Shown: one piece after another, positions 5,401 through 50,680 of the stretch
How the letters are laid out: the number at the start of each line of letters is the position of its first letter
Numbering within the stretch: position 1 is the first letter of the stretch
NCBI GenBank assembly: GCA_963575745.1
Contig: CAUYUJ010016713.1
Location: forward strand, 197,001 to 261,000
From: Prorocentrum cordatum
Taxonomy: Eukaryota > Sar > Dinophyceae > Prorocentrales > Prorocentraceae
DNA: 64,000 bases
Reading direction: 5' to 3'
The notes under the pieces: model-generated
The model's input: the letters and a program-made list of their open reading frames with translations, nothing else
Database searches by the model: none
Told to the model about the DNA's origin: nothing
Translations under genes and position numbers: made by a program

Positions 5401-8354
5401 TTGAATCTCGCCGGAGTCAGCGACCATTCCCCCGTCTCCCTCGTCTTCTCTGTTCGTTCGCCTCCCCGTTCGGATCGGCCTCGCCCCCTCCCTCTTCACC
5501 TCTACTCGGACCCTGTGTATGCAAATCTGGTCAAAGCCTACGAGGCTCAGATCGATGTTGAGCTCTGCGACCCGCCTGAGCGATTGCGACGTGCCGTCCT
5601 TTGTCGACAGCTGGCGGGAGTGGCGACTCGTGATTTGCAGCTCGAGCGGCATTGAGTCACGCGCGATGGTGGCTCGTTCGATTGCCCGTGTAGTGTATAG
5701 GCAGGGTGCACGGATGGCGCACGCTCTTCGCGCGCACCACCCTTGGACTAGAGTTGTGATGTTGGTCTCGGCTAGCGGGGAGGTTTCACTAGCGGACCCC
5801 GCCAAATTCAATGCGCTGCACGCGGGGCTCCAGCAGCAGGAAGCACGCCGTCGGAGTGAGCGTCTTGAGCAGGAAGCCGCCCGCTCCGACGGCGCAAGTT
5901 TTTGGCATGCATCACCTTTGCGATCGAGGGCTCGGGCGCTACAGAGCTGCCCAAGACGGAACAACATATAAGATCGACATGCGGTGCGCGGAGGGCCCCA
6001 GAGGTAACCTCGAGGCTCTCGCGCAATACTGGCGCCCAGTTTTCGAGGAATGCTCGCCTGTGCCACAGACTGCTGCCAAATATACGGCGCGGTCCCAGTC
6101 CAGCAGGGATTTCTCTTCCCTCCCTCCCCCGACTCTGCGGCTCCTCCGCTCCCTCCTCGCTCGCTCCTCCGATTAGTGCCCCTGGGCCCCATGGTCTTCA
6201 TTTCCAGGCCTGGCGCGTGGGGCAGGAAGCCCAGATTCTTGACGATTGTCTGCTCTGGATCATGAATGGTTGCCCGATGCCCCTGTGGTTCTCAGAATCA
6301 CTTGCAGTGATCCTCCCGAAACCAGTTGCAGGCGAAGCCGACGAGCGCGAGGCTCTCACCAGGTCTGCTGGGCACACTCGCCCGCTAGGTCTGCAGAACA
6401 CGGCCAACAAAGTTTTAGGGGTACGTTCAATCGTGCAATCTCCCCAGCTTCGCGCGGGTTGCCAGCGCACTGCCAGGGGGGGGGTTATCCCTGGGCGCAA
6501 CTTTGTTGACAATATTGTCGACATCGACACAGTAGCACGCATGGCTAGCATCAATTCGTGCGCTTTTCGCCCGCGGCCGGGAGACGCGCACGGATCCGGA
6601 CGTTCCAGCGGGCGTTCTCAGAACGTTCCGGCGGACCGTTCCCAGAACGTTTTGGCGGCGCAGAAGAGTTGTGCTGTGCCGTCTGAGGGGAAAGCCGTTG
6701 ATCCTGGGGCTGTTATGTCGCCGTCGTCGTTTCTGTCGTTCGATTTTGCGCAAGCGTTCCCCTCGGTGCGGTAAGAAGGGATGCTCATGAGTCTCACGTG
6801 CCTTAGGCTGCCGTCTGGTTTCCTTCTCTCCGTTTGTGAGCAATACCACTTCAATCCTTGCTACTTTGACGACGCGTGCATGCGGAAAGTCATTGATTGG
6901 ATGCATTCAAGGGATTCTGTAGGGCCGCCCTCTTAGCGGCACGCTTTTCATCTTTGCGATCAACCCGTTTCTCGAAGATATCACCAAGCACGCTGATGCC
7001 AAGGAACGTGGTTGCACTCGAGCCTGCGCTGATGATGCGGGGGTTGTGGTGCGGAGGCGGGTGGGATATTTCGATTCAGCCCGTATCTTCGCTCTTGCCA
7101 GGAAGCTGGCGAAATTAAGACTCGAAGCCTCGAAGTGCAATGCTTTCACCTTCGGTGGCCCTCTTGAGTCGGCGTCGGCCCCCCTCCGCGCCATTCTCTC
7201 TGAAGCCGACGTTGGTTGGGTGGCCTTTAGCATCGTCGGCAAGCTGGTCTATTTAGGAGTCTGGCTTGGTCCCGCGGCGACTTCTCTGGATCAGTGGGAG
7301 GGGCCCGCCCAGAAGCTGCTATCTAGAGCCATCGAGACTGCCGGCACAGGAGCCCACTTTGAAAGATGCGTAGAGCTCTATGCGCAGCGTGACTTATCCG
7401 TGCTTCCATAAAAAGCCCAATGGTTCTTTATGCCCGGGGCCATGGCTGTGCGTGAGAGAGGATGCTATTTGCTCGTTTTTTTTTTGTGCGCGCCCCGTGC
7501 ACGATCGTCTCGCACCCCGAGTGGTTCGAACTCCAGTCTTGGGGGTACCCCGTCTGCCCAGTACTCTCTCCATGAATGCGGCCACAATTATGCGGTGCTC
7601 TTTGGCGACGCTCTCGACATGGCAGGCTCAGATCGCCCGCCTGCGGACAGCCGCGGTCTCATACGGGCCCGTGGCATGGTGGGGCCCCCCACGGCACGCA
7701 CCCGAGTTTTGGCTGTCCGAGGCGATCGCTAGCACCCTTGAGTGGGCCTCCCTGGGCTTTCCCCCTCGTTTTCGCTCCCTCGATTTTCCCGCCTGCCCCA
7801 CTTTTCGCCTCCTCCAGCGCGCTCTGACCCAGGACGGAACGGCTGCCGCGCACATGTTTCGGGACCTGGCGATCCGAGAAGCGAGAGAGAGAGACCGCGG
7901 TGGGAGGGGAAGTTTAAGCTCTGCTTCCAGGCTGCCCTGTACCCGACCCCTTCCCTCCCCGCTCGCATCCTCGTCCTTGTCCGTCGTCACTTGGATCTCT
8001 CCTTCGACTGGGAAGGGTCAGAGGCTGCCACAATGGAGCTGCTGCAGTTGCCCCCCCCCCGCGCGGGCCCGGATTGCTCTCAGATCTTGGCCGGGATCGC
8101 GGGTCACGAGTCGCAGGATGGTCCTGCTTGATGCTCAGTGCGTTTTCGGGTGCGATGCTCCCGACCACGTCAAGCATTGTAAATGTAGCTGCCGTAGATT
8201 GCAGAATGTCGCCTCCATGGCTCTGCGTTCATTTCTCCACGGGGGCGCCCTCTTCCTCCTTGGACTTCGAGGTGGTTCTCTGGCCTTTGTAGTTGCGCGT
8301 TACCACGCGCATCGTCTAGCGTCCCATCAGAGTGCGTTTCCGCTCTGCAATTAA
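5401..8354 (+). pseudogene. Broken LINE ORF2 (endonuclease tail, RT, C-terminal Cys/His motif)
   Basis: A non-LTR retrotransposon protein is spread over several frames. At 5413-5436 the SDHSPV motif marks the end of an AP-endonuclease-like domain. RT follows: LPKPVAGEADE near 6315, GHTRPLGLQNTANKVL near 6370, and motif A FDFAQAFPSV (Asp at 6742), all in one frame that stops at 6774. Motif B (GRPLSGTLF, from 6923) and motif C (ACADDAGVVV, Asp codons 7031 and 7034) lie in a different frame that stops at 7411. The C-terminal part (7380-8354) holds a Cys/His cluster at about 8139-8192. At least two frameshifts and a stop break it, so it is a dead copy. The endonuclease N-terminus is not recognisable upstream. 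Confidence 0.75.
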
Positions 8355-8727
8355 TCGACGCCGTGAGGTTGGCCACTCGTCTCCCAACGCTGACGCGAGC
8401 CTTCCTCGAGTCCATCGTGGAGCCGGCGCGGCTGGGAAGGGAGGATGGGTAGAGTGGTTGGGATCGTGACTTTTTCTTTCACGCTGCGCCCCCTCCTCCT
8501 CCTCCTCCTCCTCCTCCTCCTCCTCCTCCTCCTCCTCCTCCTGTTCCTCCTCCTCCACCTCCACCTCCTCCTCCTCGTCCTGCTCCTCCTCCTCCTCCTC
8601 CTCCTCCTCCTCCTCCTCCTCCTCCTCCGGAGCGCACCAGTCCTCTTCCTCCTCCTCCTCCTCCTCCTCCTCCTCATCCTCCTCATCCTCCTCCTCCTCC
8701 TCCTCCTCCTCCTCCTCCTCCTGTTCC

Positions 8728-8762
<35 letters not shown>

Positions 8763-9488
8763 CTCGTTTTCGCTCCCTCGATTTTCCCGCCTGCCCCACT
8801 TCTCGCCTCCTCCAGCGCGCTCTGACCCAGGACGGAACGGCTGCCGCGCACATGTTTCGGGACCTGGCGATCCGAGAAGCGAGAGAGAGAGACCGCGGTG
8901 GGAGGGGAAGTTTAAGCTCTGCTTCCAGGCTGCCCTGTACCCGACCCCTTCCCTCCCCGCTCGCATCCTCGTCCTTGTCCGTCGTCACTTGGATCTCTCC
9001 TTCGACTGGGAAGGGTCAGAGGCTGCCACAATGGAGCTGCTGCAGTTGCCCCCCCCCCGCGCGGGCCCGGATTGCTCTCAGATCTTGGCCGGGATCGCGG
9101 GTCACGAGTCGCAGGATGGTCCTGCTTGATGCTCAGTGCGTTTTCGGGTGCGATGCTCCCGACCACGTCAAGCATTGTAAATGTAGCTGCCGTAGATTGC
9201 AGAATGTCGCCTCCATGGCTCTGCGTTCATTTCTCCACGGGGGCGCCCTCTTCCTCCTTGGACTTCGAGGTGGTTCTCTGGCCTTTGTAGTTGCGCGTTA
9301 CCACGCGCATCGTCTAGCGTCCCATCAGAGTGCGTTTCCGCTCTGCAATTAATCGACGCCGTGAGGTTGGCCACTCGTCTCCCAACGCTGACGCGAGCCT
9401 TCCTCGAGTCCATCGTGGAGCCGGCGCGGCTGGGAAGGGAGGACGGGTAGAGTGGTTGGGATCGTGACTTTTTCTTTCACGCTGCGCC
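7764..9488. repeat. Tandem duplication of LINE 3' end, period 998 bp
   Basis: The sequence from 7764 recurs from 8762 with only scattered substitutions (for example T/C at 8445/9443). The unit contains the LINE C-terminal frame (HMFRDLAIREARERD onward), about 135 bases after its stop, and the CCT array at 8491-8766. The second copy ends in its own CCT array at 9489. The near-identity points to a recent event. Confidence 0.9.
8491..8766. repeat. (CCT)n array with marker interruptions
   Basis: The CCT run is punctuated by CCACCTCCACC, CGTCCTGC, GCACCAGTCCTCTT, two CTCATC sites (near 8676 and 8685), and CTGTTCC/CTCTTCC variants. The same interruptions occur, split in two, on either side of the DIRS element (10994-11253 and 21752-21830), which makes this an unoccupied version of that insertion site. 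Confidence 0.8.
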
Positions 9489-9616
9489 CCCTCCTCCTCC
9501 TCCTCCTCCTCCTCCTCCTCCTCCTCCTCCTCCTCCTCCTCCTCCTCCTCCTCCTCCTCTTCCTCTTCCCTCCTCATCATCTCGTCGTCGTCCTCCTCCT
9601 CCTCTTCCTCCTCCTG
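9489..9616. repeat. (CCT)n array
   Basis: Nearly pure CCT follows the second copy of the duplicated LINE tail and ends with CTCTTCC variants and CATCATCTCGTCGTCG. Confidence 0.85.
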
Positions 9617-11253: not shown

Positions 11254-11309
11254 ATGCCTCTTCTATTCTCTGTGAGCAAGCTCCTGCTGTCTCCGCAGCT
11301 TCTCTGCCC
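11254..11309 (+). repeat. Split direct repeat A1 (left end)
   Basis: The 56 bases beginning ATGCCTCTTCTATTC and ending TCTCTGCCC are identical to A2 at 21504-21559. This is the left edge of the element; the sequence before it is CCT array. Confidence 0.92.
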
Positions 11310-11344
11310 AAGTGCCCCCCGTCGGCCGCGCGCGCGGGCGCCTT

Positions 11345-11869
11345 ATGCAGGCGGTCGCACAAGCGGCTCTCCAGGGCGCTGGGGAGATTTTGTTCAGGGG
11401 GCTGCGGGCCGCGCTCTACGAGCGGCTCGTGGCTGCCCCCCTCTCTGTGCTTCAGGACCAGGGGCCTCCATCGCCTGCCTGGTCCATCCAGCAGGCGGAC
11501 TCGTCCGAGGGTGAGGGGGCCTCCTGCCCTCTCCCTTCGGCGGGTTCCACCTGCCCCACCGTCTGCCTCGGGCTGGCGGTGGACCTGAGCGGCGGGGTCT
11601 CTCCCTGGCTGCTCAGCACGGTCGCCGCCCTCCTCTGGGTGACGGCCGCCTGCAGCGCCTGCGCGGGCTGCTGCCTCGGGCTGCTGGGCCCGTACGTGTG
11701 GCGGAGGCTCTGGCCCTCCGCCTGGCCGCGCGGCGCGGTTTCTGCTTCACCTGAGCAGGACCGCCGTGCGGCGCGAGCGCTGGCCTACGGGGCTCCGCCT
11801 CGACCTCAAGCGCTCGAGCGGGCAGACGCCCAGCGTGCGGGCGGCGGCGTCCACGGCGGCGCCCACTGA
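11345..11869 (+). CDS. ORF0: small single-pass membrane protein of the DIRS-like element
   Basis: The frame has 174 codons from the ATG at 11345 and is also open upstream of that ATG. The N-terminus MQAVAQAALQGAGEILFRGL looks like an amphipathic helix. A Ser/Pro/Cys-rich middle is followed by a hydrophobic segment, about residues 80-112 (WLLSTVAALLWVTAACSACA, then CCLGLLGPYVW), and a basic tail, so one transmembrane helix is likely. Its TGA (11867-11869) overlaps the gag ATG as TGATG. The second element has an ORF in the same place with the same plan (MQTALAEAVV..., Cys/Pro-rich part, membrane helix, Arg tail). No family name is known to me. An Env-like, capsid-anchoring or RNP-targeting role is only speculation. 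Confidence 0.65.
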   Translation: MQAVAQAALQGAGEILFRGLRAALYERLVAAPLSVLQDQGPPSPAWSIQQADSSEGEGASCPLPSAGSTCPTVCLGLAVDLSGGVSPWLLSTVAALLWVTAACSACAGCCLGLLGPYVWRRLWPSAWPRGAVSASPEQDRRAARALAYGAPPRPQALERADAQRAGGGVHGGAH

Positions 11870-13809
11870 TGGCGGAGCTGCCACCAGTTGGCGGAGGGCC
11901 CCTTTGGCCCGAGCTCTACCCTTTCGCTGCGCCCACGGCGCGCGACTACGCACGATGGCGCCTAGACGACGGCGACACCAGCTGGGCGGCTATCCCCCTC
12001 GCCTCTCGAGAAGGGGGCATCCTGCTGGCCCTGCCTGGTGCCTTTCGCTCTACAGCGGAGCTCGAGGCTGCCGAGGCGGATGGCTTTGCTGGGATGATAG
12101 GCCCCTTCCAGCTAGTGGACGTCCAGCTCCAGGGGGCCGCTTCACGGCCGCTCGCCACTACCGCATCCGTCCTCGTTATAGATATCGAGGTTGCCGAGCT
12201 CGAGCTCGAGTCGCTGTACCCTCTAGAGGTCGGCGACGACGCAGGCATCGTTCCCTTCGCCGAGGTGCGCAGCCGCGTCTATTGGCCGCATCCTTCGGGG
12301 GTTCGGGTGCTTCGCGAGGGCTACGCTCGTTTGCACGGCGCCCCGCCTACCGCAGGGGAAGAGCCTCTCCCAGGGGCCGATCGGGCTACCCCCTACCACT
12401 CTGCCGACGAGATGGAGGAGCCCGAGGGGTTCGCGGCCGACGGGGAAGCCGACCGCGCGGCCCCAAGTGCGCGAGCCCCCGCGGTCGCTGGAGCGCCGCG
12501 CGGCCCGCCCGCCAAGCGCGCTGGCGCCGCCGCGCCGCCACGGGTCGCGGGTCCTGCTCCGATTGCTCCTGGTGCTCCTGCGGCGTCTCTGGACGACGGG
12601 GCTCCCATGACCCGCGCCGAGGTAGCTGCCGAAATGCGCGCCTTGCTTGCAGCCCACGCGGCCTCCACGATGGTCGGCGGACCCGAACCGCTGGGCCCCG
12701 CTCCGGCTGCCCGGAGCGCTCGGCCCGAGGTGCCTCAGCTTTTCAGCGACGAGGCGGCGCGCCTCGGGCTGGATCCTGCGGGGATCGAGGCCGTCTTGTC
12801 CCACGCGCCCGTGGCCCCACATCGGGTCTCCGCGCGCCCCAAGGGACCCACCTCCGCGCTGGTCTCGGCGTGGGAGAAGGCGCGCTCTCTTGCTGTCCCT
12901 CGGGCCCCTTCGTCCGCTTCCGGACCGATGGGCCCCCCGCCGCCGCCTGGGCTAGCCCATCCCGCTGCGGTCGACGGCTTTGCCGAGGCGGGCGGCGCCG
13001 ACGGGTTAGAGCCGCCCCTTGCGGCCAATCCGACGGACTTCAGCCTCATGCTTCAGTGCCTGCACCAGTCCCTTTCCTTGCAGCAGGGGCGGGGCCATCG
13101 CCCAGCCTTCCACCCGCTTCTGGGGACCCTGAGCGACCAAGCTCAAACTCCGCCCGCGACCTCGGGCGACCCCGCGCACGCATCGGCTCAGATGGGGGGA
13201 ATCGCTCGGAGGCGCGAGTGGCAGCAAGCGCTGATGCAGCACGGCCCCGACGTGCGAGGACTGATGAAGGAGAATTTGGCCCGCGTTCTGGGCGTGGAAG
13301 TCAGCGCCGTGACCCCCATGGCCATGCATCAGTACTTTCGCGAGCACAGCCCCCTCGGGGCTCAGCCGTCGACGCACGAGTTGTTGACGCATTTTGCCTT
13401 CCTCAGCGCCGAGCTGTGGCGGGCCTGCGAGGAGGGCAACCCCGAGAGGGTCCAGACCTTGCTGACTTGCCAGTGCATGTTCATCGACCAGTTGGCGGGG
13501 GACCGCGGCTACCTCGAGGCCGCTTGGTTCCTCACGGGGCTGGAGCCTCCCCCGTGTCGCGTGACCAGTCGTCACACGGAGCGCGAGGCCCAGACCCCGT
13601 TTTCACCCCTAGTGGATCCTCGCTGGCTGTCGGCGCAGGGCGAATACATGAAGGAGCTGCAAGCATTTCGGGCGCGCCTCGACGCCGAGCGCGCCGTCGC
13701 GCTCCCCAAGCATCCACCTCATCAGCCCAAGCAGCCCAAGGTCTCAAAGCCCCCCTTCAAGTCTCAGGGTGCTCCCAAGGCCCCGAAGGCGGTGCCCAAG
13801 AAGGACTGA
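11869..13809 (+). CDS. gag: Gag-like protein of the DIRS-like element
   Basis: The 646-codon frame starts at the ATG that shares its A with the ORF0 stop and ends two bases before the ORF2 ATG. The N-terminal ~165 residues look folded (PLWPELYPFAAPTARDYARW). A Pro/Ala-rich, probably disordered part runs to about residue 260 and is followed by helical segments. A conserved-looking block lies at about 445-590 (MHQYFREHSPLGAQ, HELLTHFAFLSAELWRACEE). The tail is Lys/Pro-rich (KQPKVSKPPFKSQG) and could bind nucleic acid. I see no CCHC knuckle and no protease. Position and organisation, not similarity, support the Gag label; packaging of element RNA is the expected role. Confidence 0.65.
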   Translation: MAELPPVGGGPLWPELYPFAAPTARDYARWRLDDGDTSWAAIPLASREGGILLALPGAFRSTAELEAAEADGFAGMIGPFQLVDVQLQGAASRPLATTASVLVIDIEVAELELESLYPLEVGDDAGIVPFAEVRSRVYWPHPSGVRVLREGYARLHGAPPTAGEEPLPGADRATPYHSADEMEEPEGFAADGEADRAAPSARAPAVAGAPRGPPAKRAGAAAPPRVAGPAPIAPGAPAASLDDGAPMTRAEVAAEMRALLAAHAASTMVGGPEPLGPAPAARSARPEVPQLFSDEAARLGLDPAGIEAVLSHAPVAPHRVSARPKGPTSALVSAWEKARSLAVPRAPSSASGPMGPPPPPGLAHPAAVDGFAEAGGADGLEPPLAANPTDFSLMLQCLHQSLSLQQGRGHRPAFHPLLGTLSDQAQTPPATSGDPAHASAQMGGIARRREWQQALMQHGPDVRGLMKENLARVLGVEVSAVTPMAMHQYFREHSPLGAQPSTHELLTHFAFLSAELWRACEEGNPERVQTLLTCQCMFIDQLAGDRGYLEAAWFLTGLEPPPCRVTSRHTEREAQTPFSPLVDPRWLSAQGEYMKELQAFRARLDAERAVALPKHPPHQPKQPKVSKPPFKSQGAPKAPKAVPKKD

Positions 13810-13811
13810 AG

Positions 13812-16800
13812 ATGCCCTTGGCGCCCGCCTTCTTGGAGGGGGGGCCTTCGCGTGGCCGGGGTACGCCGCCGCAGACAGTCTGCACCGACGCTGCTACGGC
13901 TGCTAGGCGTGTTTGGGCGCAGCGAGGGCGTGAGGGTAGGAATGCGCTCCTCCAGCGATGCTGTTGCGGCCCCGCAGGGAGGAGTACGTTCCGCCACCAC
14001 GCCCCTCGCTCTGCTCCGAACCGCCCCTCGGATCCATTCGGCCATTTTGGCCGTCACCTGCCTCAGTCGAGCGCTCCCCCCATGGGGCCTGCAGCCCCTG
14101 AGGTTGGTGTTCTTGCTGGTGCTTGTTCTCCTTCAAGCACCCCTGCTGCTCTTGCCAACGTCGCGCCATTTGTCGCTGACTTGTCTGCCTTGCTGCGCCT
14201 GTTTCCAGGCGCGAACATTGATATCACCCACTGGGCGGCAGCGCTGTCCCAGGTTGGGATGGGTGCTCGATGTTCTCTTGGATCTTTCTCCCGCTCATCA
14301 ATGCGTGCAATGGACAGGGACGACCCGTGCCTTTTGGGGCCGCCTCCCCGCGATCCTTGGCCGTGCCCGCCTGCTCCACCTCTTGGTCCCCCGCCTGACG
14401 GCTTGTCGGCGAGGCGCAGGGAGCGCTGGAGATTGCGGCGCGCGGCGCGGACGCTCGCGCAGTATTCTGTTATTGCGTTGAACTGGCTCACTTTGGGTCA
14501 TCCTAGCCTCGCTCCCGCCGAGGCTCGTGTCCGCGCCACGGTCTCGCCCTGCCAGGAGGGCGTCCGCACCCGTATCGAACGGTTGTGTCGGATCGCAGTT
14601 CGCCTTGCCCGTGGTGGCAAGAGCGACTTAGGTCGAGCCTTCGCCAAGTTCGACTCTACTGAGGTCTCGCTCCATGGCCTGGCCACCCATGTTGCAGCTT
14701 TGGAGGCCTCCTTCACCTCCTCTTCTTCCGTGCCCGCCCCCATGCGGCACTGCCCGACCAGCGCTCCTTCCGTGCCTGGTTCGCTGGCGTCTGCGGCGGC
14801 TTGGGACTCCACCCAGGTCGAGCCCTTCGATTTAAAAGTCAGGGCGTCTCGCATTAAGTGGGATTACTCGCCAGTGTTTGATCCCATTCCATTTCTCTCT
14901 GACGCTCGAGTCCGCGAAGCGTTCATCAATCCAGAGGAGATGCGGCTCCCGGCGTCAGAGTGGCCTGCTGGCCAAAAGGGGGCGCGTGTCCATATGGACC
15001 GCGCCGAGCTGTGGGCCCTGCTCCAGAAGTGGGATGCCTGCGGCGCCCTGTACCTGACTCCTGCTTCGGACCTCGCCTGGGATGAAGCCTGCGGAGCTTT
15101 CAGGGTACCGAAGGACAGCGACTTCGACAGGCTGATCCTGAACCCAACGGTCGTGAACAGCCGCTGTGCCTCAATCTCGTCCAGCACCCAGCGCCTTGGC
15201 CAGGGTTTCCTGCTGTGCCGTTTGGGTCTGGCGCCTGGGGAGTGGCTGGCAGTTTCTTGCGACGACCTACGGGAGTTTTACTACACTTTCCGCGTTCCTC
15301 CCGCGCGCGCCAGGCGTAACGCCCTTCGCGTTCGTCTGCCATCATCCCGCTTCAAGGCCTTTCGAGCCTGGCGCCCCGAGCTCGAAGGTGTGGACGTCGC
15401 GCCTTGCCTCAATGCTCTAGCGATGGGCGACAACATGGCGGTGGAGATTGCCAACTCTGCACATGAAGGCGTCTTGCACAGCTTCGGGGCCTTGCGGCCT
15501 CACGAGCAGGTTGTCCACCGCTCGCCCTTCCCGCGGGGACCGTTTGTCGAGATGCTGAATATTGATGACCATACAGGTTTTCAGAAGCTCTCGTGGCATG
15601 GCTCCGCTCCTCGCCCCGACGACCCCTGTCGTCGTGATCGTGAGGTCTTCGCCGCCTGCGATGCAGGCTACCCGCGCGTGGGCCTGATTCAGCATCCAGG
15701 CAAGCGCGCGCGCGGCGAAACGCACAAGGTGGTGGTGGGCGCCGAGGTGGAAGGGCGCATAGGCATCGTCTGCGCTCCCTTAGTGCGGACGGTGGCCTTG
15801 CGCAGGCTGACCCTGATCCAAATCTACCTCGGCATCACCACACGCTCCCTGTTAGCCTCTCTTGTGGGCTGCTGGGTCCAGGTGTTCCTCTATCGCCGTC
15901 CGATGCTCGCCATTTTCACGCACGTCTACAACTTCCTGTCGCGCCTGGCGACCGAGGAGGGCATTGAATACGACTTGCCTCCTTATGTTCGCGACGAGCT
16001 TTTGGCCTGCACCTTTTTAGCCTTTACGGCTATAACCGACCTTCGGGCGCAGCCTTGCCCCGAGGTGTTCGGTACGGACGCGTCTCTCGGCTGGGGGGGC
16101 GTTGTCCGCGCCCCTATCAGCCCGCAGCTCTCCGCCGAGCTGTGGCGCAGATCGGAGCACGGGGGGTGGCACACGATCCTGCACAATCGGAGCCTCCTCG
16201 CCGTACTCAGCCGCGGCGTGCCCTTGGGCCCTGAGCTCACCCAACTGCATCGCGACCTGGGGCTCCCGTCTATTGAGCCCCCCGTCGCGCCGCGTTGGGT
16301 CACCGAGCTATCAGAGGCGCTGCGCTTTCGGCTCGCGTACAAATGGGAGTTTCGCATGCCCCGTCACATCAATATCCTTGAGACAACGGTGTATAAGAGC
16401 TTGTGCAAGTACTGCTGTATTCGCCTCCCTGACTCTCGTATCCCCGTTCTCTTGGATTCAAAAGTGGCTTTGGGCGCGACCGCTCACGGGCGCAGTAGCT
16501 CTCCTGGTCTATCTCACGTTCTTTCGACCACTTTGCCCTATGTGATAGGAGGAGGTTTATATATGGGAGGCATGTACGTGCCTACGGACGTGCACAGGGC
16601 CGACGACCCCACGCGGAACCGTGCGGTGAGGCCCCCGTCCCGTGACCCTCCCGCCTGGTTAGTTGAAGCAGAGAGAGGAGAATTTACTCGCTTTGATTGC
16701 ATTGCGTACGCCGACTCCCGCTCGTCATTCCCTACTTGTCTCTGGGGCCGATTTGTTGCGCAGCTTGTGGCTCGAGGCCCCGAGGGGCTGCTCAGCCACC

Positions 16801-18593
16801 GCTGGGCGGCCGCCCCCCCCCCCTCGGAGGGCGCGGGGATGGCCGCCGACGCCGCCAGCGACGGCGCCCAGGGGGAGGCACCTGACCCCTCGGGCGCCGC
16901 CGAGAGCAGCAGTGAAGCTGCTCTCGCCAGCGGAGAGCGTCGCGGGCCTCGCAACGCGCTCTTCGCTGACAGCGAACGGCCTCTCGCGTCCTCGGCAGAC
17001 GCCACGCCAAAAGCGTCTGCCTCCGCGGAGGGCGGCTCGCCCGGCCCCGACCCTGGCGCCGCCAGCGCAGGATCGGCTCCCCAGGCCGCCAAGCGTGCTC
17101 CGCCACTGGCCCTCCGCTCCAAGGCCGCGGCGGCCCCTCCGCCTGCTATCGGGGTGGGCTCGTCGCGCGTCGGCTCGCGGGAAGCGCCAAAGGGGGCCTC
17201 AGCAGCTACCCCCCGCACCTTCCAGCGAGCGGCCAGGGTGAGCGCCTCTCGCCAACTGCTTGGCGTAGTGGACGGGGCCTCGCGCGGCACAATTGAGGCC
17301 GCCTTCAGGCGCCAGTCCCTAGTCTACCATCCAGACAGGACTCCCGCGCACCTGGGCGCCGACGAGCGAGCAGCCCGCGCGCTGAAGTGGAAGCAGCTCT
17401 GTGACGCCAAGTCAGTGTTGCTCCAGGCCGTCTCGCAGGCCGCCGCGCCGCCCGATGTTCCCAGCACGGGCGGCGACGGTCCTGCCGCCCGCGCCTACGC
17501 CCGGGCCAAGGCGGCAGGAAAGGGCGCCCGCAAGGGCAAGCTGGCTCCAGGGTCGACCATGGCCCTTCAGGCGCTCGAAGAGGCGGTCTCCTCGCGGGTC
17601 GCCCTTGCGAGCGCCGAGCTGGCCCCTCGGGCTGCCCTCCCCGCCTCGGGCGCGCCTCTCCCGAGGGGCGGGGTTTCGTCTGCCCTCGCGACGCGGGCGG
17701 CTGAGTCGGATGCCACCCTCGTCTCCGCCGTGTCGCGCGGCCGCGTGGAGCTCGACGCACTCCGCACCGCGCGTGCCGACGCCACCAGGCGCACGGTGCA
17801 GGCTCCTGCACGCGGCGAAGGAGAGCGTGCCGTCGCTCGTGCCGAGCTCGCGGAAGGGATGGCCGATCGCGCCTACTTCCGACGCGTGCGCGAGGCCGCC
17901 AGTCGAGAGGCCGCGGGCTTGCCGCGCACCGCTCCCGTCCAGCTGGGTCGGGATTGGCGCAAAACCTTGCGCGCCGTCCTGCGCAGCGCTGAGGTCTCGA
18001 CGGGCCTCGCCATCGCAGAACGTGCCGCTCGTGCTGGGGACGCACCCGCGTCGTCCACTGGCCGCTCCTTGGCCGAGGTGGAGGCTGAGGACCCGCGCGC
18101 CTTGGCAAGGCCCGCCGACGACCCTGCGTCCAGCTTCAGCCGTCGTGAGCGGCGCGCGGTCCGCGCCCGCCTGGGCCCGCGGGATGAAGCGGTCGAGGAC
18201 CAGCCCAACCGCGGTGGTCACGCGCCGCACTCCGCCTCGCGCACGGGCGCCGCGCGCACCAGGCGCGCCGCCAGGCAGCGGCGGGCTTCGATGGCGGCGC
18301 TCCCCGCCCCTGAGGGGGGGGGCCGCCACGGCGCCTGGCCGCAGGGCGCGTCGCACTGCCAATGCGCGCCGCTGGGCAGGCGCGGCACGCCCCAGCTCCG
18401 CCGCGGGAGTGGGCTCCCCACCGCGGAGCCGCAGCCCTGCCCGCAGCCGTACGCGGTCTCCAAACCCGTACGGGACCGACCGCACCTCTCCCTCGGGGGG
18501 CTGCTCGTCGCCTCCCGTCGACGGCCCGATCTCGCCCGAGGAGCCGTCGGAGCCGCCTGCGGGGGAGGCATCGGAGGGCCCGCACACTCCTGA
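13812..18593 (+). CDS. ORF2: reverse transcriptase-RNase H with J-domain
   Basis: The 1593-codon frame starts at the ATG two bases after the gag stop. Residues 1-330 are a Pro/Ala-rich linker and an Arg-rich helical part. RT follows, with motif A CDDLREFYYTF (D484/D485) and motif C NIDDHTG (D585, D586; NIDD in place of the usual YxDD). RNase H shows the D-E-D-D set: GTDASLGWGG (D756), NILETTV (E857), LLDSKVALG (D882) and HRADDPTR (D931). An Ala/Ser/Pro linker (945-1140) leads to a J-domain at 1144-1207 with Y-H1173-P-D1175-R. The last ~380 residues are Ala/Arg-rich and helical with no known fold. Motif order is that of DIRS-type proteins; the J-domain is not part of that family as I know it. 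The last ~1.2 kb overlaps an open +1 frame that leads into the recombinase. Confidence 0.88.
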   Translation: MPLAPAFLEGGPSRGRGTPPQTVCTDAATAARRVWAQRGREGRNALLQRCCCGPAGRSTFRHHAPRSAPNRPSDPFGHFGRHLPQSSAPPMGPAAPEVGVLAGACSPSSTPAALANVAPFVADLSALLRLFPGANIDITHWAAALSQVGMGARCSLGSFSRSSMRAMDRDDPCLLGPPPRDPWPCPPAPPLGPPPDGLSARRRERWRLRRAARTLAQYSVIALNWLTLGHPSLAPAEARVRATVSPCQEGVRTRIERLCRIAVRLARGGKSDLGRAFAKFDSTEVSLHGLATHVAALEASFTSSSSVPAPMRHCPTSAPSVPGSLASAAAWDSTQVEPFDLKVRASRIKWDYSPVFDPIPFLSDARVREAFINPEEMRLPASEWPAGQKGARVHMDRAELWALLQKWDACGALYLTPASDLAWDEACGAFRVPKDSDFDRLILNPTVVNSRCASISSSTQRLGQGFLLCRLGLAPGEWLAVSCDDLREFYYTFRVPPARARRNALRVRLPSSRFKAFRAWRPELEGVDVAPCLNALAMGDNMAVEIANSAHEGVLHSFGALRPHEQVVHRSPFPRGPFVEMLNIDDHTGFQKLSWHGSAPRPDDPCRRDREVFAACDAGYPRVGLIQHPGKRARGETHKVVVGAEVEGRIGIVCAPLVRTVALRRLTLIQIYLGITTRSLLASLVGCWVQVFLYRRPMLAIFTHVYNFLSRLATEEGIEYDLPPYVRDELLACTFLAFTAITDLRAQPCPEVFGTDASLGWGGVVRAPISPQLSAELWRRSEHGGWHTILHNRSLLAVLSRGVPLGPELTQLHRDLGLPSIEPPVAPRWVTELSEALRFRLAYKWEFRMPRHINILETTVYKSLCKYCCIRLPDSRIPVLLDSKVALGATAHGRSSSPGLSHVLSTTLPYVIGGGLYMGGMYVPTDVHRADDPTRNRAVRPPSRDPPAWLVEAERGEFTRFDCIAYADSRSSFPTCLWGRFVAQLVARGPEGLLSHRWAAAPPPSEGAGMAADAASDGAQGEAPDPSGAAESSSEAALASGERRGPRNALFADSERPLASSADATPKASASAEGGSPGPDPGAASAGSAPQAAKRAPPLALRSKAAAAPPPAIGVGSSRVGSREAPKGASAATPRTFQRAARVSASRQLLGVVDGASRGTIEAAFRRQSLVYHPDRTPAHLGADERAARALKWKQLCDAKSVLLQAVSQAAAPPDVPSTGGDGPAARAYARAKAAGKGARKGKLAPGSTMALQALEEAVSSRVALASAELAPRAALPASGAPLPRGGVSSALATRAAESDATLVSAVSRGRVELDALRTARADATRRTVQAPARGEGERAVARAELAEGMADRAYFRRVREAASREAAGLPRTAPVQLGRDWRKTLRAVLRSAEVSTGLAIAERAARAGDAPASSTGRSLAEVEAEDPRALARPADDPASSFSRRERRAVRARLGPRDEAVEDQPNRGGHAPHSASRTGAARTRRAARQRRASMAALPAPEGGGRHGAWPQGASHCQCAPLGRRGTPQLRRGSGLPTAEPQPCPQPYAVSKPVRDRPHLSLGGLLVASRRRPDLARGAVGAACGGGIGGPAHS
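13944..13979 (+). repeat. 36-bp internal direct repeat, copy 1
   Basis: GCGCTCCTCCAGCGATGC and the bases after it, to GCAGGG, are identical to 19182-19217. Copy 1 lies in the linker part of ORF2, copy 2 in ORF3, and they are read in different protein frames, so the likeness is at DNA level. Confidence 0.85.
17241..17435 (+). other. J-domain (DnaJ-type, HPD) inside ORF2
   Basis: The 65 codons fit a complete J-domain. Helix I/loop is ASRQLLGVVDGASRGTIEAA, helix II is FRRQSLVYHPDRTP with HPD at 17328-17336, and a charged loop is followed by helix III ARALKWKQLCDAKSVLL. Length, the LGV...AS phrase and HPD all match the family, whose members stimulate Hsp70 ATPase. The domain is in frame with RT/RNase H and is flanked by low-complexity linkers. 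The second DIRS-like element (60.1 kb on) has nothing like it between its RNase H end and its recombinase. Confidence 0.82.
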
Positions 18594-18705
18594 CGGGTCC
18601 CCGCCCGCGAGCGTTCGCAGCCGCTCGAGAGCGGAGCCCGCGTGCGACGAGGACTCTCCGACGGAGCTCGAGGACGTCGTGCTGAGTGCCCTCGCAGACT
18701 CCTCG

Positions 18706-21336
18706 ATGGACCTCGAGCGCGTCGTGGCGGGCCTGAACCCCGAGGTCCTCCGCCGCCTGCAGGCGGCCTTCCCTCGCCGCTCGGGGGCCTCTCCGCCCGC
18801 CGCTCGCGCCTCGGTTCGCAGTCGCTCTCGGGGCCGCGGCACGCGTGTAGGCTCCGAGACTCCGCGGCCCGTGCCCCCGCCGCCGCCGCCGCCCCCTCAC
18901 CACTCTGGTGGGCGTGCGGCGTCGCGATCCCGCGCGTCGACCGCAGGCCAGGGGCTTAGTCGGGCCGTCGCGCGCGGCTCCTCTCGCGCGCCTTCGCGTC
19001 AGGCGACGTCGCCTCGGCGTCGCGAGGTGCGCTCCCCTCGAGTCGCTCCGAAGCGGCGCCCGAGCCCCGCTACTGCGCAGCGGCCAGCCACGTCCCGCCA
19101 TGGTGCGAGCTCGGGCGACGCCCACGCAGGCAGCTCCCGCGCGGACTCCGCTGCTCAGGCCCCTCAGTCTTCGGTAGGCACGCGCTCCTCCAGCGATGCT
19201 GTTGCGGCCCCGCAGGGCGGAGGGCGTGCCGCCGAGGAAAGGGGGTCTTCGAGCGGCCCCGCGCCTGGCCGAGATTCAGGGCACGAGCTGCATCCCAGCG
19301 GCTCCCACAGCGGCGACGCTGGGAGCGCCGCGGCTGCAGCCTTCGCAGCGCGGCGCACGGCCTCCGCGGCCGTTGAGCAGCCCTTGCCTCCAGGGGCCGC
19401 CACCGCCCTAGCGTGGCGTCTCAACCTCGGCGGTGAGAAGGTCACAGTGGTGAGGTGGGGACCCGCCTGGCAAGCTGCCTTCCAGAGCGCGGCGTCGTGG
19501 CTGAGGTCTTTCGCACCCGCAGGGGCCGCCGAGCCCGAGGGCAGAGATGACCTGCACTGCCTCCTGCAGGCCTTGCACGCCTATAAGCGCCTGTTTCAGA
19601 CAGGCGGCGCCGAGCCGATCGACGAAGCCTCGTGGTTGCATCCTTACGTGGCCGCCGTCGAGCCCGAGGCTATCCCCGCGGGCGCTGACCTCCAAGCCAT
19701 GGGGGCGGGCGCCATCCGTGGCATCGGGCTCGGCTCAAAGATCGAGCACAGGAGGCGCGCGGGCAAGTTGGCCTGCCTTTTCGACCTTCTGTACCACGTG
19801 CAGGACGGTCACGGCGCCATCCCAGCAGCGCTGTGGGGATCTCATTCCCCTCCGTCCGAGATCCTCGACGCGTTCGCGGAGGTGGTGCCCGTTCCACATC
19901 ATTCGGGCCTCACGTCCTCGGCAGCTCGTTCCGAGCTCGCCGAATCGGCCGCAGCTGCGCGCGCCGAGCCGCGCCCGCCCTTTGACTGGGCGACCCTCGA
20001 GGGAGGGGGCGCTCTGCCCGCCGAGATCGAAGCAGGGGCTCGCCGTGCTCACCGTAACATGGGCGGATCCTTCACCTCGGCGCGGGCGATGCTGGCGGAG
20101 GCGTCGGGGTTCGAGACCGACGGGCGGGACACCCTCGTTCCGCCCTTCTACGCGTCCAGGAGCAGGAGGGCCGCCACGCTGATCAGCTCTCCCAGCCCTG
20201 GCCGCCCTGCGCTCATCCTGTGGTGCGTCTGCGGCCTCTGCATCTCTCTGGGAGCCGCGGCGCCGACCGCAGGCCAAGGGCTTAGTCGGGCTGCGCCTTC
20301 CGCGCCCGCTCGCCCTCCGCGCACTCCCTTCGTGCGCGATTCTCACCTCACCTCCGCGTATCTCGATCGTCGCTCGAGATCGATTGATGCGTTCGAACTG
20401 TGGTTAGCAGAACACACTGGCGTGCCGCCCGCCACTCTTTACCGTAGCGGGCTACTTCTCGCCCGCTTCCTCGCGACCTTCGGCGCGTGGCTTCATGATG
20501 CAGGTTTCCCTCATTATATTCTGGTTCATGCCATCTTGGGAATCCAGAGCGCTCATCCGCATTGGAAGGCCTTTCTAACAGAAGCTTGGGACGTAGCGAA
20601 ACAATGGAAGCTCGCGGAGCCGCCAAAGCTCCGCCCGCCCTTACCTCGCGCTCTGCTGCGCGCTATGGTCGGTCTCTGTTTCGCCTGGGACTGGCCTGTG
20701 ATGGCGGCCTTGCTGCTCATGGGCTTTACGATGTTCCTCAGGCCTGGCGAGCTGCTGGCGTCACGCCGCTGTGACTTGTCGCTTCCTTGCGACCGCCTCG
20801 AAGTTGAAGGGGATGCTTTTCTTTCGATTCTTGTTCCAAAGACCAGGAGAACGTACCCGACGCAGCATGCTCGCTGCTCCGATCGGGGCACGGTGAAGAT
20901 TCTGAATCAAGTGTTTGGGCGGTTGGCTTCCACCGATCCTCTCGCCCCTTTCGGTGCGAGCGGCTTCCGTACTCGGTGGAATCATTTGCTTTCGGCCCTG
21001 GGCGTCCCTCTTGCCAAAGCGGGTCAGGGGCTCAACCTGACGCCCGCATGTCTGCGGGGCTCTGGCGCAACAGACTTCTATATCGCTACGGAAGACGTCC
21101 CTCGCGTCTTCTGGCGGGGGCGTTGGCGTCAGGCTTCCAGTGCTGAGCGCTACCTGCAAGCCGCCGCCGCTTCCACAGTTCTTGCTGCGCTGCCCGTGCC
21201 CGCACGGGCGCGGATCCTGTTCTTCGCCACCGCCAGCGACCGCCTTGTCGCTTCCTTTCTCCAAGTCGGCCCCGCCGCTTGGCCTGCCCTACTTGCGGCC
21301 GCCCGCCGAAACCTTGTCACTTCGCAAGGTCCTTGA
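18706..21336 (+). CDS. ORF3: tyrosine recombinase of the DIRS-like element
   Basis: The start shown is the ATG of MDLERVVAGLNPEVLRRL. The frame is open back to about 17401 in +1 relation to ORF2, so frameshifting or a start further upstream is possible. Residues to about 540 are Ser/Arg-rich linker, a tubulin-unrelated globular part of unknown fold, and a hydrophobic stretch near 20202-20260. The recombinase occupies about 20330-21170. Catalytic residues in order are R (LRPGELL, codon 20740), K (VPKTRRTY, codon 20839), R (ACLRGSGATD, codon 21055), W (FWRGRW, codon 21124) and nucleophile Y (AERYLQ, codon 21151). The His expected three residues before the second Arg is Ala. It should integrate circular element DNA at the AT-core site. 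Confidence 0.85.
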   Translation: MDLERVVAGLNPEVLRRLQAAFPRRSGASPPAARASVRSRSRGRGTRVGSETPRPVPPPPPPPPHHSGGRAASRSRASTAGQGLSRAVARGSSRAPSRQATSPRRREVRSPRVAPKRRPSPATAQRPATSRHGASSGDAHAGSSRADSAAQAPQSSVGTRSSSDAVAAPQGGGRAAEERGSSSGPAPGRDSGHELHPSGSHSGDAGSAAAAAFAARRTASAAVEQPLPPGAATALAWRLNLGGEKVTVVRWGPAWQAAFQSAASWLRSFAPAGAAEPEGRDDLHCLLQALHAYKRLFQTGGAEPIDEASWLHPYVAAVEPEAIPAGADLQAMGAGAIRGIGLGSKIEHRRRAGKLACLFDLLYHVQDGHGAIPAALWGSHSPPSEILDAFAEVVPVPHHSGLTSSAARSELAESAAAARAEPRPPFDWATLEGGGALPAEIEAGARRAHRNMGGSFTSARAMLAEASGFETDGRDTLVPPFYASRSRRAATLISSPSPGRPALILWCVCGLCISLGAAAPTAGQGLSRAAPSAPARPPRTPFVRDSHLTSAYLDRRSRSIDAFELWLAEHTGVPPATLYRSGLLLARFLATFGAWLHDAGFPHYILVHAILGIQSAHPHWKAFLTEAWDVAKQWKLAEPPKLRPPLPRALLRAMVGLCFAWDWPVMAALLLMGFTMFLRPGELLASRRCDLSLPCDRLEVEGDAFLSILVPKTRRTYPTQHARCSDRGTVKILNQVFGRLASTDPLAPFGASGFRTRWNHLLSALGVPLAKAGQGLNLTPACLRGSGATDFYIATEDVPRVFWRGRWRQASSAERYLQAAAASTVLAALPVPARARILFFATASDRLVASFLQVGPAAWPALLAAARRNLVTSQGP
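18939..18965 (+). repeat. 27-bp internal repeat, copy 1
   Basis: GACCGCAGGCCAGGGGCTTA followed by GTCGGGC recurs at 20265-20291 with one substitution. Both copies are in the same frame of ORF3 (TAGQGLSRA). Confidence 0.85.
19182..19217 (+). repeat. 36-bp internal direct repeat, copy 2
   Basis: This is the partner of 13944-13979, 5238 bases downstream. Recombination between the two would remove ORF2 and the first part of ORF3. Confidence 0.85.
20265..20291 (+). repeat. 27-bp internal repeat, copy 2
   Basis: This is the second copy of the 18939-18965 sequence (26 of 27 identical), just upstream of the recombinase domain. Confidence 0.85.
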
Positions 21337-21347
21337 GCACGGGTATG

Positions 21348-21505
21348 GCTGCCTCGCCGTCGTCGGCGAGCAGGCGGTCTCCCCCGCCTGACGCGCGGCG
21401 CCCCGGCACGAGCGCGCGGGACGGGCCTGCCCATTTTGGGCCGCCCCGCGCGCGCGAGCCGCGGCCGCGCTCGGAGACAGCTCGCTAGCGCGCGAGCGGG
21501 AGAAT
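21348..21505 (+). repeat. Split direct repeat B1
   Basis: The 158 bases begin eleven bases after the recombinase stop and are repeated at 21594-21751 with one visible substitution (CCATTTTGG / CCATTCTGG). Their end GGGAGAAT abuts A2, so B1-A2 preserves the junction expected in the circular intermediate. Confidence 0.92.
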
Positions 21506-21559
21506 GCCTCTTCTATTCTCTGTGAGCAAGCTCCTGCTGTCTCCGCAGCTTCTCTGCCC
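21504..21559 (+). repeat. Split direct repeat A2
   Basis: This is identical to A1 at the left end of the element. It lies between B1 and B2, as in PAT/Ngaro-type elements. Confidence 0.92.
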
Positions 21560-21593
21560 CCCTCCCTCCTCTCCCAATCTAAGGCTGATGGGC

Positions 21594-21751
21594 GCTGCCT
21601 CGCCGTCGTCGGCGAGCAGGCGGTCTCCCCCGCCTGACGCGCGGCGCCCCGGCACGAGCGCGCGGGACGGGCCTGCCCATTCTGGGCCGCCCCGCGCGCG
21701 CGAGCCGCGGCCGCGCTCGGAGACAGCTCGCTAGCGCGCGAGCGGGAGAAT
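21594..21751 (+). repeat. Split direct repeat B2 (right end)
   Basis: This is the second copy of B, ending GGGAGAAT directly against the CCT array. It marks the right edge of the element. Confidence 0.92.
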
Positions 21752-22577: not shown

Positions 22578-22840
22578 TTCGGCACACCCCTCACACGCTT
22601 CGTGGCCACACACCCCTCACACGTTCCGTGGCCCTATAGGGAACCCCACCGAAGGCAGCAGTGGAAGCGTTCGCATGGCAGCCCCGCGCCCATTTCAGCG
22701 CACCCCTCACACGTTACGTAGCCCCATAGGGAGCTCCACCGCAGGCCCCAGTGGTTGCGTTCGCATGGCGGCCCTGCGCTCAGTTCGGCACACCATCACA
22801 AGCTTCGTGGCCCCATAAGGAAATCCACCGAAGGCGATAC
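22576..22840. repeat. Satellite units of the 'CTTCGTGGCCCCAT' family
   Basis: Three to four units have the form CACCCCTCACACGCTTCGTG, GCCCCATAGGGAGCTCCACC, GAAGGC...GTTCGCATGGC. They belong to the large array at 42703-43998. A related leader (about 22042-22110) precedes the array here and there. Confidence 0.75.
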
Positions 22841-28842: not shown

Positions 28843-29052
28843 GTCCACCCCGTGCCAATGACCCCCCAGATTTCTTGGTTCTCGATGTGGTTGGGGACGC
28901 ACGGGGCAGCCTTTAAGGATCCCTGCTGGGGTCCGACGAGCACCCCGACCACGAGGGCCAGGGAGTGGGGGTCGGGGCGACAAAGGCTTAATTCGGCCAG
29001 CGCGTGCACGAAAGGAGCCTGCCATGGCTCGAGGCTGGGCCCGGGGATCCAG

Positions 29053-30170
29053 ATTTTTCTTCCGATGATCGGGATCAGAGTTTGGGTTATGGAGGCAAAG
29101 AGCTACGGACTCACGAAGTTCTCATGTAACACAGCCGGTCGTTTCGACAGGAGCGACCAGGCCACACGTAGTTGAGCAGCTCACTGCAGCAACCACCACG
29201 CAGGTGGCCAGTCTGTGTACCATGCTCACTGCTTGCCGCTGCTTAGCCTACGGGTCGGGGACTACGGACCACTGCACAGCAAGTTCGCGGTAGCCCCTGG
29301 CCCGCTGATTCGCCCGGATCAGCTTCCCATTCAGTATGCTGCCACCTCACGCACATTGCCTAAAGGGTCGGGGACTAAGGACCACTGCGTAGCAAGTTCA
29401 CAGTAGCCCCCGACCCGCTGATTCGACTGGATCAGCCTGCCAGCTGCCGCGCGCGCAGCCATCCTCCTGCACATCGCTATATCCGCCTGCCGCTGTTGCA
29501 GCTCTCGAGTCAGTGCGCGAGTATGTGAAGCACGATCGGGCATAGCAGAGCCTAAAACCACGGATGGGCCGGTACACCGACAATGGGGATGTCAATCTTA
29601 TGTTGTTCCCGGATTTTTCTTCCGATGATCGGGATCAGAGTTTGGGTTATGGAGGCAAAGAGCTACGGACTCACGAAGTTCGCATGTAACGCAGCCGGTC
29701 GTTTCGACAGGAGCGACCAGGTCACACGTAGTTGAGCAGCTCACTGCAGCAACCACCACGCAGGTGGCCAGTCTGTGTACCATGCTCACTGCTTGCCGCT
29801 GCTTAGCCTACGGGTCGGGGACTACGGACCACTGCACAGCAAGTTCGCGGTAGCCCCTGGCCCGCTGATTCGCCCGGATCAGCTTCCCATTCAGTATGCT
29901 GCCACCTCACGCACATTGCCTAAAGGGTCGGGGACTAAGGACCACGGCATAGCAAGTTCACAGTAGCCCCCGACCCGCTGATTCGACTGGATCAGCCTGC
30001 CAGCTGCCGCGCGCGCAGCCATCCTCCTGCACATCGCTATATCCGCCTGCCGCTGTTGCAGCTCTCGAGTCAGTGCGCGAGTATGTGAAGCACGATCGGG
30101 CATAGCAGAGCCTAAAACCACGGATAGGCCGGTTCACCGAAAATGGGGATGTCAATATTATGTTGTTCCC
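29053..30170. repeat. 560-bp tandem duplication
   Basis: 29053-29612 is repeated at 29613-30170 with few substitutions. Each copy contains a ~112-bp internal subrepeat (from 29247 and 29359: GGTCGGGGACTACGGACCAC and variants) and three hairpins with a TCGACAGG-like loop. A relative of the subrepeat lies at 31524-31597. Confidence 0.92.
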
Positions 30171-30177
30171 GTTTGCC

Positions 30178-42702: not shown

Positions 42703-43998
42703 CCCCTGTCGCTGCGGCGCACCCCTCACGCGTTTCGTGTAGGGGGGCCTCACCGAAGGCCCCAGTGGCTGCGTTCACACGCCGCCCCCCTCAACTTTGG
42801 CACACCCCTCGCACGCGTCGTGGCCCCATCGGGAGCTCCACGCAAGGCTCCAATGGGTGCGTTCACATGCCGCTCCCCTCCAGTCTGGCACACCCCTCAC
42901 ACGCTTCGTGGCCCCATAGGCAGCTCCACCGAAGGCCCCGGTGGCTGCGTTCACATGCCGCCCCATCTCTGCTTTTGCAAGCCCCGCGCACGCTTTGTGG
43001 CCACAGAGAGTTCCACCGAAGGCCCCAGCGGCTGCGTTCACATGCCGCTCCCCCTCCACGTTGGCACATTCACGCGCTTCGTGGCCCCATCGGGAGCTCC
43101 ACCGAAGGCCCACGCGGCATGTTTCGCATGCGCTTCCCCCACCCAATACAGCGCTTCGCGGCCCCATAAAAAAGGCGGCCCACCGAAAACGCCACTGACG
43201 GTGTCCGCATGCGCTTCCCCATCCCAGTAATGCGCTTCGTGGCCTCATAAGGAGCCCCACCGAACACTCGTGGCGGTGTCCGCATGCATCTCCCCCCCCC
43301 CCCCCCGTCGATTTCAACGTTTCGTGGCCCCAGAGGGAACACCACCGAATGCCCCAGTTGCGGTGCCCGCGTGCGTTTCGCCCACCCAGTACACCATTTT
43401 CGCGGGTCCATTGTGAGCTCCATCAAAGGCCCCAATGGCGGCGTCCGCATGCGTCGCCCCCACCCAGGGCAACGCGTCGTGGCCCCACAGGGAACTCCAC
43501 TGAAGGTTCCAGTGGCGGTGTCCACATGTATTTCCCCCCACCCTGTATAGCGTTCCGTGGCCACATAGGGAGTTCCACCGAAGGCACCAGTGGCGGTGTT
43601 CGCGTGCGTCTCACCCACCCAGTACTTCGCTATGTGACCCCATATGGAGCTCCACCGAAACCCCTACTGGCGGTGTTCGCATGCTGTTTCCCCTACCCAA
43701 TGCACGGCGTCGTGGTTCCATAGGGAGCTCCACCGAAGGCCCCAGTGGCGATGTCCGCATGCGTTTCCCCCGCCGAGCACTTCGTTTCGTGGCCCGATTG
43801 GGGGCCCCACCGAAGGCCTTAGTGGCGGTATTCGCATGCGTTTCCCCAACGGAATATAGCGTTTCGTGGCCCCACAGGGAGCTTCACCGAATGCCCCAGT
43901 GGCGGTGTCCGAATGCGTCGCCCCCATCCACTACAACGTTTCGTGGCCCCATACGGAGCTCCATGGGAGGTTCCAGTGGCGGTGTTCGCATACGTCGC
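42703..43998. repeat. Satellite array, mostly 77-bp units
   Basis: About 16 units. The phrase TTTCGTGGCCCCAT and variants occur near 42821, 42909, 42998, 43082, 43159, 43240, 43325, 43403, 43480, 43559, 43635, 43712, 43790, 43867 and 43944. Steps are 85-89 bases at first and then 76-85. Each unit also has GGGAGCTCCACCGAAGGC, CCCAGTGGCGGTGT and CGCATGCGTTTCCCCCACCC. Since 77 is not a multiple of three, long frames are fortuitous. Confidence 0.9.
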
Positions 43999-50598: not shown

Positions 50599-50680
50599 CG
50601 GCCGCCGTCGTCGTCTTCGCGTCCTGTTCCTCTTCTCTTCACCTCATGGGTCGGGCGAGTCGTTTTCTTAAAAGCGCATA

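Follow-up and report, generated by a model that had tools for sequence, protein, structure and literature searches.

Does a retroelement of the dinoflagellate Prorocentrum cordatum encode a J-domain of its own, and what could a mobile element gain from one? The question is raised by a 64,000-nucleotide stretch of contig CAUYUJ010016713.1 (hereafter the window), in which a first-pass annotation had placed a J-domain at 17241-17435, fused to the reverse transcriptase (RT) and RNase H of a DIRS-like element. Here, the identity of this domain, its reading frame, its occurrence in other copies and its possible role were examined.

A complete DIRS-type retroelement harbors the domain

The element that contains the domain measures about 10.5 kb, and its split direct repeats follow the order A1...B1-A2...B2 (Table 1), in agreement with the A-coding-B-A-B plan that is typical of DIRS retrotransposons (PMC5890265, excerpt). 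Repeats A1 and A2 are identical (56/56), B1 and B2 agree at 155 of 156 positions, and B1 abuts A2. The near-identity of these repeats points to a recent insertion of the element. On their outer sides A1 and B2 border on tracts of (TCC)n, which constitute both flanks and in which a target-site duplication could not show.

Table 1. Features of the DIRS-type element, with window positions and the evidence for each.
Feature	Position	Strand	Evidence
Complete DIRS-type element, with its split direct repeats, between (TCC)n tracts	11254-21749	+	Repeat identity, flanks
Repeat A1, left end	11254-11309	+	Repeat comparison
ORF1 (646 aa) in gag-like position; its TGA and the ORF2 ATG are separated by AG	11869-13809	+	Codon usage in frame
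ORF2, N-terminal part; starts at the first ATG beyond the stop of ORF1	13812-14798	+	Frame from 13797
RT and RNase H region	14799-16739	+	Homology to P0004-P0007, motifs, low-confidence model
Ala/Pro-rich linker; C11 run 16813-16823; in-frame ATG 16839	16740-17240	+	Weak in-frame codon signal; pieces aligned to P0008, P0009
J-domain; YHPDR at 17325-17339	17241-17435	+	Pfam DnaJ, PDB sequences, model and fold search, codon usage
Conserved, mostly helical tail, ending near G9 run	17436-18332	+	P0008 alignment, codon usage
ORF3 frame, open over 17386-21336, with an Arg/Ser-rich stretch followed by a coding domain from ~19234	18333-20325	+	Codon log-odds
Tyrosine-recombinase-like region and stop	20326-21336	+	tblastn of P0004, P0005, P0007 C-termini
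Repeat B1, abutting A2	21348-21503	+	Repeat comparison
Repeat A2	21504-21559	+	Repeat comparison
Repeat B2, right end	21594-21749	+	Repeat comparison

Assignment of the coding regions relied little on domain profiles. No Pfam family was matched by ORF1 at E-values up to 1. The RT/RNase H region likewise gave no Pfam match, and an RT-RNase H alignment searched against PDB sequences returned none; support for RT and RNase H comes from motifs located in the region and from a low-confidence model, the listed matches of which were RT and RNase H entries. RTs of Symbiodinium DIRS elements have been reported to align poorly with Pfam seeds (PMC5890265, excerpt). The segment 20326-21264 is homologous by tblastn to the C-termini of the related proteins P0004 and P0005, and partly to that of P0007; in this recombinase-like region Arg and Tyr motif positions were read by eye, and no Pfam match was obtained up to E 10.

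Several other sequence features were recorded. At 13807-13814 two bases separate the TGA of ORF1 from an ATG that lies in frame with ORF2, a possible stop-restart arrangement. A 61-bp direct repeat (90% identity) occurs inside the element at 13935-13995, before the RT region, and at 19173-19233, before the domain that precedes the recombinase; both copies start with GGTAGG and contain GCAGGG, and may serve as a signal for splicing, trans-splicing or expression. Another direct repeat inside the element (75%) occupies 18934-18992 and 20260-20318, the later copy lying just before the recombinase region. Elsewhere in the window, direct repeat pairs with 98% identity span 859 bp (7760-8617 and 8758-9615) and 563 bp (29049-29611 and 29609-30171), and tandem arrays with units of 77-161 bp are found at 22609-22835, 42716-43998 and 50677-51380, the printed units of which contain CCCATAGGGAG or a near form. 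The arrays at 22609-22835 and 42716-43998 match each other by blastn.

The window encodes a true J-domain

The frame read from 13797 was translated up to 18593, and the resulting 1598 residues were searched with hmmscan against 24,736 Pfam models, the check that the first-pass annotation had proposed. PF00226 (DnaJ) was the sole family matched by the whole translation up to E 1, with an E-value of 1.1e-5 over residues 1154-1210. The position given for the J-domain was thereby borne out; expressed in residues of this frame it covers 1149-1213, with the HPD at residue 1178. The score of the match was 25.8 bits, 2 bits short of the gathering cut-off of 27.8, and since it falls below this curated threshold other evidence is needed for the J-domain call.

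Searches of PDB sequences were carried out with an 86-aa stretch, which gave 42 matches up to E 1 by phmmer (best 8.1e-5), and with a profile of the J-domain from three copies, which gave 32 matches at E ≤ 0.01 (best 1.7e-6). The proteins matched in both searches are J-domain proteins, by entry name or as generally known. Top matches of the profile were RabJ, a type II Hsp40 and SEC63, and no clear orthologue of the element's domain was found among the PDB sequence matches.

The J-domain plus tail (390 aa) was modelled with AlphaFold2, with one homolog in the alignment. For the whole model the mean pLDDT was 61.1 and the pTM 0.27, while block means of 88-94 were obtained in the J region (model residues 21-90). 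Helices were predicted at model residues 18-33, 41-55 and 66-93, with the HPD (56-58) between the second and the third. The first ten Foldseek matches of the model were all J-domains, with E-values of 0.0096-0.038, none at or below 0.001, and target-normalised TM scores among the J-domain matches reached 0.75. Features of PF00226 present in the window are therefore the HPD between helices II and III and the J fold itself. Combined, these results confirm that 17241-17435 encodes a true J-domain. Cellular J-domain proteins that lack G/F and zinc-finger regions constitute class C; the element's domain is similar to these in having a J-domain with HPD in an ORF2 without any other Pfam domain, and differs from them in being encoded by a retroelement.

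Linker, J-domain and tail are coding in the frame of RT and RNase H

The proposal that ORF2 continues in frame past RNase H into the J-domain was upheld, since 617 codons (16740-18590) are free of stops. An open frame arising by chance in DNA of 75% GC was considered and rejected: only 8 of 2000 first-order Markov controls stayed open over 617 codons, and forward-strand codon usage singles out the pol frame. With the RT-RNase H and recombinase cores as training set, codon log-odds were positive among forward frames in the pol frame only, over the linker (0.075), the J-domain (0.194) and the tail (0.193 and 0.148). The J-domain is thus about as strong as RT-RNase H itself (0.215), and minus-strand frames over J-domain and tail scored lower (≤ 0.074). 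GC content by codon position agreed with the pol frame from 17250 to 18209 and was flat from 16770 to 17249, in the Ala-rich linker. At the start of ORF2 (13812-14600) the codon signal was not clear in any frame. By codon usage, the coding stretch that follows RNase H in the same frame takes in the linker, the J-domain and a tail of about 300 residues, and reaches to about 18332.

Past ~18332 the pol-frame log-odds turned negative (-0.124), and those of the ORF3 frame were near zero as far as 19172 (-0.010, then 0.013) and 0.143 from 19234. The coding frame switches at or near a G9 run (18314-18322). The predicted RNA fold at this run was ordinary (z -0.40), and nothing beyond the frame change itself backs a programmed frameshift.

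The J-domain recurs in near relatives of the element

Three homolog searches, each scoring only the 7993 or 7994 candidates that shared most words and bound to miss copies in short pieces or outside the length limits, yielded eight distinct proteins. P0008 comprises J-domain plus tail; its DnaJ score of 27.9 bits lies above the cut-off, and it is 51.9% identical to the window over 389 aligned residues, the alignment ending at the G run. P0011 has a DnaJ score of 25.7 bits, under the cut-off. Its pieces match 17202 to ~17430, 18126-18317 and then the ORF3 frame up to 18375, and its last piece matches 20916-21026 in the pol frame, thus outside the recombinase frame; we read P0011 as a broken copy of this element that has lost internal parts. 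P0009 contains the end of RT, RNase H, the linker and the first residues of the J-domain, where the protein ends, and no J-domain was found in it by Pfam. P0010 contains RNase H. The source contigs of P0010 and P0008 have 4205 bases each, and the same bases, read in two frames, can give the end of P0010 and the start of P0008; we infer that both proteins lie on one contig whose frame is broken close to the C run. Runs of C (C11) and G (G9) flank the J module on both sides: near the former the frames differ on the inferred P0010/P0008 contig, and near the latter the coding frame of the window changes.

The remaining proteins tell a different story. None of P0004-P0007 matched a Pfam family, DnaJ included, at E-values up to 1. 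In P0004, P0005 and P0007 RNase H passes to the recombinase without a J-domain, and P0006 ends earlier. RNase H of the window element is 85-87% identical to that of P0010 and P0009, versus 47-51% for P0004 and P0005, which are also related to it in RT (38-39%) and recombinase (35-36%). Besides the missing DnaJ match, P0004 and P0005 differ from the window element in some hundred extra residues inside the RNase H region and in a single frame that runs through to the recombinase, with DIERNPGP between RNase H and recombinase (residue 1217 in P0004 and 1227 in P0005), a 2A-like motif. In this small sample, the J-domain appears to accompany the near relatives of the element. DNA searches for other copies, among viral contigs with P0008 and two further queries and among genome contigs with one of the latter, found no relative.

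A host exon captured in one copy, which the first-pass annotation had offered as an alternative, is untenable with a full J-domain in P0008 and P0011 and the start of one in P0009. A host gene beside the element was rejected as well, the domain lying between A1 and B2. Neither of the two outcomes named beforehand as speaking against the proposal, absence of a significant DnaJ match and confinement of the domain to a single copy, occurred.

Conservation was compared along the module. Between the window and P0008, 29 of 67 residues are identical in the J-domain and 42/98, 59/110 and 61/90 in successive tail segments, the end of the tail being better conserved than the J-domain or the first tail segment. 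HPD and the AFRR of helix II are kept in all three full J-domains (window, P0008 and P0011). When the J-plus-tail DNA was evolved neutrally in simulation to the observed identity, 12 of 1500 runs were stop-free, a count biased towards a reading of constraint because the protein database contains open frames only, and HPD was kept in 158 of 1500. Constraint is known at the protein level only, from a database of open frames.

A second, distant DIRS-like element occupies 62665-64000 and is cut by the end of the window. It shows an RNase H-like match at 63019-63219 (E 6.7e-4). Some 0.4 kb past this match begins a stretch that, judged by eye alone, resembles a recombinase N-terminus. That this element lacks the domain, as the annotation had stated, holds in that no J-like reading was found between the two stretches; the conclusion drawn from it, gain or loss of the domain within the group, is not shown by this element itself, which is different, distant and truncated and thus alone no proof of either.

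A captured domain apparently new to DIRS-type elements

In line with the statement that no retroelement is known to carry a J-domain, none was found in the open-licence PMC literature, which does not by itself show absence from all print. The words 'DnaJ' and 'J-domain' are absent from the excerpts of PMC6338049, on retrotransposon accessory domains, and of PMC5890265, and DnaJ in the excerpts of PMC9998398 and PMC7159879 refers to host or bacterial proteins. Accessory domains in DIRS-type elements are already known; what appears to be new is a DIRS-type element with a captured J-domain. The closest parallel in layout among the systems compared, by description only, was SymbioDIRS-Dnmt3 (PMC5890265, excerpt), which shares with the window element the A-coding-B-A-B repeats, RT and RNase H in the Pol frame, a recombinase downstream and an extra domain in Pol. 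By contrast, the domain added there is a Dnmt3-type methyltransferase and that of the window element a J-domain; no methyltransferase was found in ORF2 by Pfam up to E 1, DnaJ being the only match.

Proposed role of the J-domain

The explanation that we favour, with a probability of about one half, is that a DIRS-type lineage captured the J-domain and its helical tail between RNase H and recombinase and kept both, and that the domain acts in cis by bringing host Hsp70 to the RT complex. The J-domain would bind host Hsp70 and stimulate its ATPase, and Hsp70 would be loaded in cis onto the Pol protein or the Pol RNA complex. No separate host Hsp40 would then be required for RT to fold or to open for binding of its template, and the conserved tail may provide the contact to the client. 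Counted in favour of this explanation were the DnaJ profile matches in three copies, the J fold, the retention of HPD and AFRR, the pol-frame codon usage over linker, J-domain and tail, the passage of P0009 from RNase H into linker and J-domain, and the identity of 52% with P0008 over 389 residues. Counted against it were the window score below the Pfam cut-off and the lower conservation of the J-domain and first tail segment. Moreover, P0004, P0005 and P0007 do without the domain, so it is not generally needed by an RT of this kind, and since the frames of RNase H and J-domain differ on the inferred P0010/P0008 contig, the fusion may not be universal.

Priming by the full-length RT of duck hepatitis B virus needs cellular chaperones, notably Hsc70 and Hsp40 (PMC5541001, excerpt). 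If recruitment of Hsp70 by the element is true, both would have an RT activated by the Hsp70 system, with the difference that the virus uses a host Hsp40 in trans and the element carries its J-domain in the RT frame; the parallel is mechanistic and does not imply kinship. A bolder version of the Hsp70-recruitment proposal, tentative and on the unlikely side, would have an RT with its own Hsp40, the J-domain being an essential cis-acting co-chaperone cassette, and frame switching at the C and G runs yielding RT-RNase H with or without J-domain and with or without recombinase.

The domain could instead work late, carried with Pol in a gag-like particle and recruiting Hsp70 for disassembly of the particle or for hand-over of the DNA circle to the recombinase. 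Particle take-down by J-recruited Hsp70 is auxilin-like. The location of the domain between RNase H and recombinase in coding order fits such a step, as does P0011, whose sequence passes from pol to ORF3 frame, though P0011 is a deleted copy; nothing is specific to this step, particle formation is putative, and a late role is considered improbable.

Less probable again is an action on the host, in which the domain would divert or remodel complexes that contain Hsp70 and serve silencing or DNA handling, much as T antigens do, or act as a decoy for J-protein-based silencing. Polyomavirus T antigens bind Hsc70 through their DnaJ domain and disrupt pRb/E2F complexes (PMC8894888, excerpt); they are likewise products of a selfish genome that encodes its own J-domain with HPD, which is N-terminal in a DNA-virus protein and not, as in the element, placed behind RT/RNase H. 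Transposable elements of Arabidopsis are repressed by SILENZIO, a J-domain protein acting together with MBD5/6 and Hsp70 partners (PMC8616336, excerpt). That the domain is fused to RT/RNase H, both in the window and in P0009, favours action on the element's own complex, and no host target is known for the element's domain.

Still lower we rank the possibility that the stretch between the ATG at 16839 and ~18330, the J module, is made as a separate protein and that its in-frame continuity with RT in the window is incidental. P0008 begins with a Met aligned to this in-frame ATG, and P0010, which probably shares its contig, stops there in a different frame. Yet P0009 has Val instead of Met at this position and shows no break between RNase H, linker and J-domain, and the codon signal of the linker is positive in the pol frame. 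Finally, a passenger role, with a host J-domain exon captured once and drifting functionless, is very improbable given the HPD and AFRR of all three copies, the outcome of the neutral simulation and the RT-like codon usage of the J-domain, even if constraint is known at the protein level only and relatives live without the domain.

With the element described here, a putative co-chaperone joins the kinds of domain captured by DIRS-type elements. If Hsp70 is recruited, the chaperone dependence of reverse transcription would be an encoded trait of a mobile element, directly mutable at the HPD, and the activity of the element would be tied to host chaperones, a dependence known in trans from hepadnaviruses.
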